IMG/VR virus record: IMGVR_UViG_3300041955_001975
Span: 90,738-113,838 of that record
Reading direction: 5' to 3' (one strand)
Length of the DNA stretch: 23,101 nt
Origin: a virus
In this document: piece by piece, positions 15,631 through 23,101 of the stretch
Layout of the letters: each line of letters starts with the position of its first letter
How positions within the stretch are numbered: position 1 is the stretch's first letter
Made by a program: the position numbers and the translations under genes
The notes under the pieces: generated by a model
What the model saw: the letters and a program-made list of their open reading frames with translations, nothing else
Told to the model about the DNA's origin: nothing
Databases searched by the model: none

Positions 15631-15824
15631 TGGAAAATCTCCCCAGTGAGGTAGAAGTGGTTGCTGGTGTGCCGACTGAGTTGTTCTTTCAACTCGTTTA
15701 CCCGCCGATTGAGCCCCTCGATCCGGCCGACCAGCGTGTTGATAATGGCCTGGTCAAGCGGGCTGAGCAGCTTCAGATCGTCCTTGAAGGAACGGCCAGG
15801 CCGGGTATCGTCCTGGCTACTCAT
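15627..15824 (-). CDS. Small coiled-coil protein
   Basis: A 65-residue protein whose middle (LSPLDQAIINTLVGRIEGLN followed by RRVNELKEQL) has leucine/isoleucine spacing of a coiled coil, suggesting a dimer. The ATG at 15824 gives an 8-base overlap with the stop of the Toprim gene and is preferred to the ATG at 15836. It could be an accessory of that protein, but only proximity supports this. Confidence 0.55.
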   Translation of the reverse strand: MSSQDDTRPGRSFKDDLKLLSPLDQAIINTLVGRIEGLNRRVNELKEQLSRHTSNHFYLTGEIFQ

Positions 15825-16788
15825 GGCCGTCCCCATCGCTCAAGAAGTTCACGGTGTCGTCCCATCGCCGGGACACGAGGCCGAGTTGCCGGCGGCCGGT
15901 CTGTTGCCTCGACACCTGCGCTTCCCAGGCGTCGGCGTCGATCAATGCCTCGATCTCGCCGCGGATCAACTCGACGATGGTTCGCGGCTCCAGTGCGTCC
16001 AGTTCCCAGGATTCGTCCCCGAAGCGCTCCTGGTAAGACTGGTAGCGGGAGTCGGTGGCCTTCGCCGGGTTGGGCGGCGGACTGTACTGCTGGACCTGAT
16101 CCCAGTTCAGAGCGATGCGGCGGATCTTCGCCGTAGAGCCGAACAGGGCAAGCCGATCCTGAATGTCGCGGCTCATGTCAATGCCCGAGGGGTCGTGGTC
16201 ACCCAGGTGAATGATCGTGGTCGTCTTGTCGGCCCTCTCGCGTTCGAGCAGGCGTTGGGCCGCTCCCCACATTTCGCTCTGGCTCGTGTAGCCCCGGCAG
16301 GCGAAGTAGGGCACATCCCATTCCGTGCAGATGCCTTCCAAGACGCCGACCAGGGCATCCTTCTCGATCCATACTTCGACGTAGTTGTCCTGATTGGACC
16401 ACATATCCACGGCGAACTGGTCGGCACAGGCCCGGACAATGGCCCGCGGGCTGGACCAGTGGGAACCGCTTCGCAGGTTCCTCGTCCGGTCTTCAATGGC
16501 ATCCCAGTCGATCAGGCCGGCAAGCCGGGCGTCATTGACGACATCACCCAGCTTCTTGTAGTTCTTCACCGTGTTCTTCGTGTCGGCGGCGAGGCCGTTC
16601 CTCCGGTTGTACTCCTCGTCGATCCAGGCGTCGGGGAACAAGTCCTGGGCGATGAACTGGTAGTAAAGCTGACGCAAGGTCAACTTGAAGCCCTGGGCCT
16701 GGTAGTCCTCGATGATCTTGTTCGCACTGGCGATGATCGCCTGCGCCAGGTTGGCGAAGCGTTTGTGGATGTACGAAATCTTAGGCAT
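15817..16788 (-). CDS. TopoVI-A/Spo11-like Toprim protein (Mini-A-like)
   Basis: A 323-residue protein that carries both halves of a topoisomerase VI A subunit. In the N-terminal winged-helix-like part, TLRQLYYQFIAQDLF (37-51) matches the 5Y-CAP motif, with Y42/Y43 as candidates for the tyrosine that attacks DNA. The Toprim domain has E142 in VEVWIEKDAL, a RGYTSQSEMWGA segment (165-176) and D197-H-D199-P-S-G in IIHLGDHDPSG, all expected for Mg-dependent strand cleavage. TopoVI-A and Spo11 cut both DNA strands; short stand-alone relatives (Mini-A) are known from mobile elements and lack a linked B subunit. It is co-transcribed with the SprT-like gene and shares a promoter design with the GHKL ATPase. 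The ATG overlaps the upstream stop by 8 bases. Confidence 0.8.
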   Translation of the reverse strand: MPKISYIHKRFANLAQAIIASANKIIEDYQAQGFKLTLRQLYYQFIAQDLFPDAWIDEEYNRRNGLAADTKNTVKNYKKLGDVVNDARLAGLIDWDAIEDRTRNLRSGSHWSSPRAIVRACADQFAVDMWSNQDNYVEVWIEKDALVGVLEGICTEWDVPYFACRGYTSQSEMWGAAQRLLERERADKTTTIIHLGDHDPSGIDMSRDIQDRLALFGSTAKIRRIALNWDQVQQYSPPPNPAKATDSRYQSYQERFGDESWELDALEPRTIVELIRGEIEALIDADAWEAQVSRQQTGRRQLGLVSRRWDDTVNFLSDGDGHE

Positions 16789-20734: not shown

Positions 20735-21244
20735 TCAGTCCGGGTAACCCCACTTCTTTCGGAACTCCGGGTCACGCCGCTTGACAGCCAGGACGGTATG
20801 CACGAGGCTCGATCCCTCGCAGCCGGCCAGGGCCTCGCGCCACTTGTTGACGACGTACTTGCTGACGCCCCAGTAGAAGGCAATGGCCAACTCCTCTTCC
20901 TCACACACGGCACGCACGAGATCGCCGCACAAAATCGGGATCAACTGCCGCCTGTGGGTCACCGCCGGCCAGGGGATCGGTGCCTTCGTCATGGCCTCGA
21001 CGATCACGTCGCCCAGCATCTCGCAATGCAGTTTGTTGCCGGCACTGACGCTGGGTGGCGCATAGGGGCCGCCCTTCCATCGGTGCTTAGAAACTGGCGG
21101 GTACGTCTTCGCACCAATCAGAGCCGATGCTGTACTCATTTTCTTCCTCCGGCTCTCCGCCGGCTTCCTTTTCAGGGGTTTCGTGCCCCGCGCAGCGTTC
21201 GTACCTCTCACGCCCCTTGTCGGTTTCCGTAGCTTCTGGCCCAT
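20735..21244 (-). CDS. Planctomycete-type HTH protein next to recombinase
   Basis: A 169-residue protein. The C-terminal half has RRQLIPILCGDLVRAVCEEEELAIAFYWG followed at once by VSKYVVNKWREALAGC, a helix-turn-helix that I recognise from numerous planctomycete proteins with a WGVS...V.KWR.AL motif. The N-terminal 36 residues are strongly basic (GTKPLKRKPAESRRKK), suited to DNA contact. It could regulate the element or assist the recombinase. Two starts have good ribosome sites: the ATG at 21244 (GAGGTG) and the ATG at 21139 (GGAGGAAG), which would drop the basic arm. It follows the recombinase after 29 bp and precedes the ComM-like gene by 2 bp. Confidence 0.7.
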   Translation of the reverse strand: MGQKLRKPTRGVRGTNAARGTKPLKRKPAESRRKKMSTASALIGAKTYPPVSKHRWKGGPYAPPSVSAGNKLHCEMLGDVIVEAMTKAPIPWPAVTHRRQLIPILCGDLVRAVCEEEELAIAFYWGVSKYVVNKWREALAGCEGSSLVHTVLAVKRRDPEFRKKWGYPD

Positions 21245-22057: not shown

Positions 22058-22086
22058 AACATACACCACAGCCGAGGTAAAGTCAA
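22058..22086 (-). promoter_or_regulatory. Shared-design promoter for the recombinase operon
   Basis: Minus strand: -35 TTGACT (22081-22086), 17-base spacer TTACCTCGGCTGTGGTG, -10 TATGTT (22058-22063). The spacer is one base longer and the CCA half is replaced by ACC; the TGG half remains. It lies in the 76-bp gap between the two recombinase genes and allows the active one to be expressed alone. Confidence 0.75.
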
Positions 22087-22102: not shown

Positions 22103-23101
22103 TCAGGCCAACTTCTGCCGCTCGGCCCTCTTCACGTAGCGCTTGCCAAGCGAGCGCACGTGCAGGCGGCGAACGAGCAGCATGTCAAAAGGCCGGCCGC
22201 CGGCCGTCAGGGAGCCCCGCTCATTGAGCTTGGTCGTGATCTCGTCATACGTGCTGCCCGCATCCCGCATTTGCGTAATCTCCCGGATCAAAGGGGCATA
22301 GTACGCTTCAACGTCAGACCTCTTCATGCCGAGTGCATCCCAGCGTTTCCGGCCGGGATTGCCACCGGGCCGAGCCCTTCCCAGGTACTCCTTACCCAAG
22401 TAGCGGCCGATCAGCCGGAAGAGGGACACTTGAGTGAAGGGCTTGCCGGCCGTCGTCAAGTGACCCTGCTGGTTGAGCCACTCCACGATCTCCGCGTAGG
22501 TGCCGCCCTCGTCCCGCCTCCGCTTGATTTCAGGGACCAGGAAGGCATAGTGATCCTTCGCACGGGCCATCCGCCGCGCCGAAGCACTGGCAACGGCTTT
22601 GTCCCAGCCGCGGAGGTGCTCGCGCCCCTTCCAGTGACCAGGGCGATTGGAGCCCAGCTTGACGCCGGCTTTCTTGAGTGCCGCAAGAGTCTCCTTCGTC
22701 CTTTGACTGGCCTGGCGTCCCTCGGCCTCCGCCGTCGCCGCCAGAATATGGATCGTTTCCTTGTTGGCAACCGGATTGTCGCAACAAAGAAACTCAATGC
22801 CGCTGTTCAGCAAGGCCAGGGTGACTCCCCGGTTCCGCACAAGCCGGCCGACACGACCAAACACCAGGCAGGCCCCCGACTCCCGGCAATGGGCAATGGC
22901 CTCAGCCAGCTTCGGGCGATTCCCCTTGTAGTCGCCGGTCTCCTGCTCCACATACTCAGCAAGGACCTTGGCCTTGATCCGGCCGCGAAGGTCTTCAGTA
23001 GCAGCCCGTTGGACCTCCATGCTGGCACACCCCTGCTTCATCCCCTGCCGGTAGTAGAGGATGACTTTGCTGATTACAGCGGCTTTGACGGTTGTGTCCA
23101 T
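22103..23101 (-). CDS. Serine-recombinase paralogue without catalytic serine
   Basis: A 332-residue protein clearly related to the adjacent recombinase across its length (shared LVFGRVGRLVRN, LCCDNPVANKETIHILAA, GHWKGREHLRGW). At the active site, YYRVSTRKQ is replaced by YYRQGMKQG, so the catalytic serine (S16 of the partner) is G20; D83 of the partner is G85. R18, R86 and R89 are kept. The C-terminal module (HYAFLVPEIKRRRDEGGTYA and on) is present twice, the second copy beginning YYAPLIREITQMRDAGSTYD at about residue 266. It should bind DNA and perhaps dimerise but not cut. The start ATG is the last three bases of the window, so its ribosome site and promoter are not visible and a longer form cannot be excluded. 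Confidence 0.85.
   Translation of the reverse strand: MDTTVKAAVISKVILYYRQGMKQGCASMEVQRAATEDLRGRIKAKVLAEYVEQETGDYKGNRPKLAEAIAHCRESGACLVFGRVGRLVRNRGVTLALLNSGIEFLCCDNPVANKETIHILAATAEAEGRQASQRTKETLAALKKAGVKLGSNRPGHWKGREHLRGWDKAVASASARRMARAKDHYAFLVPEIKRRRDEGGTYAEIVEWLNQQGHLTTAGKPFTQVSLFRLIGRYLGKEYLGRARPGGNPGRKRWDALGMKRSDVEAYYAPLIREITQMRDAGSTYDEITTKLNERGSLTAGGRPFDMLLVRRLHVRSLGKRYVKRAERQKLA

Follow-up and report, generated by a model that had tools for sequence, protein, structure and literature searches.

In serine resolvases and DNA invertases, one protein both cuts DNA and scaffolds the complex in which it is cut; only in the laboratory have these two roles been taken apart (S10A at accessory sites). 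The dimers of Tn3 resolvase are catalytic at site I, whereas those at sites II and III do not cut. A catalytically dead S10A resolvase supports recombination when it is bound at site II or III, not at site I (PMC9943657). Here we analyzed a 23,101-nucleotide stretch of viral DNA (the window), which comprises bases 90738–113838 of the 113,838-base IMG/VR record IMGVR_UViG_3300041955_001975 (G000). The window carries a serine recombinase gene whose product lacks the catalytic residues (the pseudo recombinase) directly upstream of an intact paralog (the partner), with a 76-bp gap between the two and both on the minus strand. We found that such pairs recur in related phages. We consider it about as apt to prove right as wrong that the pair makes up a phage system for serine recombination with two components, one of them a dedicated non-cutting DNA-binding subunit. 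In the open-access literature (subscription papers lay outside this scope), we found no described example of a natural, catalytically dead serine-recombinase partner.

Results

The pseudo recombinase lacks both catalytic residues and retains the resolvase fold

The frame of the pseudo recombinase (22103–23101) is open from its ATG through 332 codons, and its product scores above the Pfam cut-offs for Resolvase (50.8 bits, cut-off 23.3) and Recombinase (35.4 bits). It is thus a PF00239 homolog, and it has neither the catalytic Ser nor the DRLxR Asp that mark the enzymes. The protein is 46% identical to its intact neighbor over 243 amino acids (aa). Where the neighbor has YYRVSTRKQ at the Ser motif, the pseudo protein has YYRQGMKQG, with Gly20 (codon 23042–23044) at the position of S10 of Tn3 resolvase; where the neighbor has KLDRLAR, the pseudo protein has RVGRLVR, with Gly85 (codon 22847–22849) at the position of D67 of the DRLxR motif. 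The Lys that precedes this Asp is replaced by Arg and the equivalent of Gln14 is lost too, and the Arg equivalents of R8, R45, R68 and R71 are retained together with the E-helix Glu and Arg. The fold predicted by AlphaFold is confident (mean predicted local distance difference test score, pLDDT, 88), and phiC31 integrase chains are among the best fold matches of the model. A preliminary description of this locus, made from the sequence alone, had proposed the Ser-to-Gly change, the loss of the Asp and an otherwise intact fold over 332 residues, and the alignments and the model bear these out.

The same description had pointed to a second C-terminal module. The module is real in this protein, with 34% identity to the DNA-binding region of the neighbor and 46% identity over 68 aa to that of the relative L006 (both by BLASTP), but it is no general feature, as none of the 16 other paired pseudo proteins described below has it and something similar was seen only in the more distant L008. 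The duplicated module is lineage-specific, and it would add DNA contacts to the copy in the window. Conservation within the pseudo family is highest in the first C-terminal module.

The partner has gamma-delta resolvase, Tn3 resolvase and a DNA invertase as relatives in the PDB. At 332 and 250 aa, with only PF00239 and part of PF07508, neither protein of the pair has the build of a large serine integrase (about 500 aa or more, zinc ribbon, coiled coil). No significant hairpin was found in the 76-bp gap (z –0.7). The pseudo recombinase is the final gene of the 113.8-kb record and its ATG lies at the very last base; because the first bases of the record are also ATG, the ends of the record appear to have been set at gene boundaries, which leaves the 5′ flank of the pseudo gene out of view.

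The loss of the catalytic residues is shared by a family of paired genes

The preliminary description had proposed a search for homologs that share this loss and neighbor an active paralog. By scanning IMG/VR and reading open reading frames (ORFs), we found 16 further pairs; the 17 pairs, including that of the window, lie on 16 distinct records, of which one holds two pairs, and two further records duplicate pairs of others. In all 17, the two genes share a strand and the pseudo gene is the upstream one. The DRLxR Asp is kept in 17/17 partners, and Gly stands in its place in 17/17 pseudo proteins. The catalytic Ser, present in every partner, is lost in 15 of the 17 pseudo proteins (9 Trp, 4 Gly and other letters in the remainder), although the letter in this column is unsure for L049, L055 and L111 because most of the catalytic loop is absent in these three. 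R8, R45, R68, R71, E124 and the E-helix Arg are mostly retained across the pseudo proteins.

Relatives with an intact Ser, which had been named as grounds for doubt, do occur: the pseudo copies L041 and L109 keep the Ser and have lost the Asp, and the intact relatives L047 and L051 adjoin the pseudo clade in one tree, where they may mark its origin. The objection holds only in part. In L008, a lone more distant relative, Ser and Asp are both gone and the position of the Asp is occupied by His. Relatives in named phages and plasmids are distant only (<45% identity). An origin from a host chromosome was considered and set aside: a search with the pseudo-family profile in 392 genomes from the phylum to which a Planctomycetota metagenome-assembled genome belongs, with the six best candidates per genome scored, gave 8 matches at E ≤ 1e-20, of which 7 are full-length with intact Ser and Asp and 1 is a fragment. 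A second resolvase on the G018 contig proved unrelated and is an IS607-type transposase.

Constraint on the pseudo proteins falls mainly on the DNA-binding domain

The ratio of nonsynonymous to synonymous substitution (dN/dS; pairwise NG86, unsaturated dS) is 0.17–0.30 between related pseudo genes and 0.14–0.40 between partners; these figures come from related copies and not from the window's own, which has no close relative. By this measure, the related pseudo copies are under purifying selection and so are the partners. Ordinary decay, in which a duplicated recombinase is losing its function and its frame is open by chance, would fit the window's copy as a long branch at the record end with two catalytic residues gone. 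Against decay stand the fixation of Asp to Gly in all 17 homologs, the dN/dS values of the related copies, the 332 open codons and the conservation of gene order and of the promoter-like boxes described below. We reject decay for the family, given purifying selection and the uniform Asp-to-Gly change, and regard it as very improbable overall. The earlier argument that the long intact frame speaks against decay is strongly supported by the grouping of the pseudo proteins as a clade beside intact paralogs, by purifying selection and by their own promoter-like boxes.

Across 17 contigs, mean identity in the catalytic domain is 45% for pseudo proteins versus 60% for partners, and mean identity in the DNA-binding domain is 68% versus 52%. 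This interaction, which was first seen with 15 pairs, was matched by 1/150 within-contig label swaps, indicating that constraint on the predicted pseudo proteins is shifted from the catalytic to the DNA-binding domain. The distance matrices of pseudo proteins and partners correlate (Mantel r = 0.58, 1/10,000 permutations), and on this evidence the two appear to co-diverge. In a tree from all columns, the pseudo proteins fall on one side of a single branch (75/75), and most of them stay together when the catalytic motif columns are removed (98/97 for 12).

Co-divergence and the conserved oligomerization helix would also be expected if pseudo and intact proteins formed heterodimers or heterotetramers at the crossover site and thereby set direction or asymmetry, as a direction factor or negative regulator. 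However, the DNA-binding domains of pseudo proteins and partners are only 37–64% identical, so that the two probably read different half-sites, and we know of no serine-integrase direction factor that is a recombinase paralog. We therefore hold this arrangement to be improbable. The DNA-binding domain of the window's pseudo protein has a mean identity of 62% to the pseudo family and 46% to intact proteins, and it is 59% identical to that of its own partner. Of the three roles first proposed for the pseudo protein, the evidence favors a DNA-binding, synapsis or regulatory subunit, and nothing points specifically to a direction factor.

Promoter-like boxes precede most pseudo genes

We found that a box of the form TTGAC-N13-20-TGTA[AGT]G precedes 11 of the 15 pseudo genes whose upstream region is on the contig, where 0.04 would be expected from mononucleotide shuffles, an expectation that overstates the surprise because the pattern was picked after viewing the same sequences. 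The box is visible by eye in the upstream alignment, and related boxes stand before partner genes. Pseudo genes often lie at a divergent pair of such boxes that they share with an opposite-strand gene.

This arrangement bears on the reading that the main task of the pseudo protein is to repress transcription of the module, with a former recombinase now regulating its own and neighboring promoters. Resolvases commonly repress their own genes, as TnpR of Tn3 and gamma-delta does, and the strongest constraint on the pseudo proteins is in the DNA-binding domain, as it would be in a repressor. Yet the kept catalytic fold, the E-helix and most of the phosphate-binding Arg residues exceed the needs of a plain repressor, which also would not require tight pairing with an intact recombinase, and no shared palindromic operator was recognized in the promoter regions. 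We regard a mainly repressive role as unlikely, though deserving of serious consideration.

A conserved DNA element lies upstream of the recombinase genes

Comparison of upstream regions identified a non-coding stretch with the core CGGGTGGGGTCAAA and flanking, phased iterons of ~9 bp in opposite orientations. The element lies ~1 kb upstream. Within this set, it is recognized in 17 contigs, where it precedes recombinase genes in one orientation throughout, including contigs with the pair and contigs with the intact gene alone; the profile was built from 12 contigs and found 5 more afterwards, 2 of them weakly (L049 and L111). A strict 25-base pattern of the element has 10 matches in 2.9 million IMG/VR viral contigs, and the recombinase module is present on 10/10. 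Of the sequences seen here, this element is the strongest candidate recombination site, although it may instead be an origin of replication. GC-rich tandem repeat arrays also occur upstream of the pair in L028, L038, L041, L049, L055, L109 and L111.

Gene setting and other features

The G000 record carries phage genes for a terminase large subunit, a portal, a tape measure protein, DNA polymerase A and a helicase-like protein. Family searches with the small conserved module gene gave no match. Directly downstream of the recombinase module, a 232-aa protein shows partial matches to the ChlI family of Mg-chelatases, covering Walker A and the C-terminal part. Two further proteins of the window without a family match, one with an LRQLYYQFI motif and one with a GHKL-ATPase-like GQFGSGNKHAIN motif, recur in related contigs and, judged from their motifs, might be distant subunits of a topoisomerase VI-like enzyme. 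Rfam gave no match in the window or in three relatives.

Other recombinases occur in some of these phages: G009 and G013 carry large serine recombinases, and tyrosine recombinases are present in 4/11 records, none of them G000. The 103-kb contig IMGVR_UViG_3300050333_000165 (L028, L031) carries two pseudo/intact pairs near its opposite ends, facing inwards, and a large serine recombinase frame of 607 residues. For an inversion of tail genes in the G000 record we saw no support: no exact inverted repeats of at least 17 bases resembling the ends of an invertible segment were found in its 113.8 kb, which may be incomplete. The phage also encodes, outside the window (L057), a compact Cas9-like protein whose PDB relatives are IscB/Cas9-type nucleases and whose best NCBIfam model is Cas9d (107 bits, under the cut-off of 375); a CRISPR-like array lies beside the gene.

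Table 1. Coordinates of the features discussed. Positions are those of the window unless a record is named; those of L057 are bases of the same record, outside the window.
Feature	Position	Strand	Evidence and remarks
Pseudo recombinase of 332 aa, Gly20 for Ser and Gly85 for Asp	22103..23101	(-)	ORF and alignments
Degenerate resolvase catalytic domain, aa 13–147 of pseudo	22661..23065	(-)	Pfam PF00239, 50.8 bits; AlphaFold model
First C-terminal DNA-binding module, aa ~184–241	22379..22552	(-)	Pfam PF07508, 35.4 bits; domain-wise identity
Second, duplicated C-terminal module, aa ~261–320	22142..22321	(-)	BLASTP; helices in model
Promoter-like box TTGACTTT-N-TGTATG	22060-22086	(-)	In 76-bp gap before intact gene; type as before relatives' pseudo genes
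Intact partner serine recombinase, 250 aa	21274..22026	(-)	Ser, Asp and all Arg present; Pfam PF00239, 90.2 bits
Small conserved module gene (RAGPYxPPxV...APIxWP)	20735..21244	(-)	By eye; between or beside pair in relatives
ChlI-like protein, 232 aa	20055-20753	(-)	
Protein with LRQLYYQFI motif	15817-16788	(-)	
Protein with GHKL-ATPase-like motif, 477 aa	7803-9236	(-)	
Iteron-flanked element, examples	L006 4818-5030; L028 6918-7041; L050 1536-1601		Upstream of recombinase family
Cas9-like protein, 989 aa	L057 927-3896	(-)	
CRISPR-like array	L057 4164-4453		Five ~37-nt repeats, 66-base period (once 55-base)

Discussion

Taken together, these data suggest a division of labor in which the intact protein would do the cutting and joining and the pseudo protein would be a catalytically dead DNA-binding subunit maintained by selection. 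The pseudo protein would occupy accessory half-sites of the recombination region, for which the iteron-flanked element ~1 kb upstream is the candidate, would pair through its retained catalytic-domain fold and would help with assembling or licensing the synaptic complex for cutting by the intact protein. In Tn3/gamma-delta and Sin resolvases, this architectural task falls to non-cutting dimers of the resolvase itself. An accessory role fits because the nucleophile and the Asp are lost, the fold and most phosphate contacts are kept, and constraint lies mainly in the DNA-binding domain. Both proteins presumably act in one complex, and, given the other recombinases that some of the phages carry, the reaction may serve integration, excision or multimer resolution. 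The more specific proposal, that phages have split a serine recombinase by duplication into a cutter and an obligate dead architectural subunit that reads the conserved element, is one to which we would give slightly less than an even chance.

Several observations weigh against this division of labor. L104, a 23.7-kb fragment, has a well-conserved element and an intact recombinase and no pseudo gene; the iterons are therefore no proof of binding by the pseudo protein, and we do not uphold their attribution to it. The element is absent from the G000 record, where its expected upstream place is off-record. The pseudo protein of the window forms a long branch without a close relative, and in one tree with the catalytic columns removed it stands beside its own partner (81/80). 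This tree suggests a separate origin of the window's pseudo copy, which the approximately unbiased (AU) test makes unneeded, as a single pseudo clade is not rejected (p 0.67).

If a non-cutting subunit of this kind is confirmed, a conserved natural dead partner would be a ready-made system for studying and controlling cutting and scaffolding apart, and it would possibly be a new on/off switch for a small serine recombinase. An unstudied phage group also gains a candidate recombination site.

Among known systems, the large serine integrases with their recombination directionality factors (phiC31, Bxb1) likewise join a serine recombinase encoded by a phage to a possible accessory protein, but those integrases have 500–600 aa as compared to 250–332 aa here, and no direction factor known for them is paralogous to a recombinase. 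CcrA/CcrB and XerC/XerD are paralogous recombinases encoded or acting together; both members of each of these pairs are catalytically competent, whereas here one member always lacks the Asp and mostly lacks the Ser. In the Sin resolvase (Tn552-type), separate catalytic and regulatory (site II tetramer) assemblies form on one site (PMC2428073, PMC2764113). There too a single protein does both jobs, and a dead paralog is not known. The Tn3 and gamma-delta resolvases share with the pair the catalytic fold, and their recombination region has non-cutting accessory dimers and tolerates a dead subunit there. In contrast to these resolvases, in which one protein fills both roles at three dimer sites (I, II and III), the phage module has two genes, one of them dead, a PF07508-type C-terminal part and phased ~9-bp iterons.
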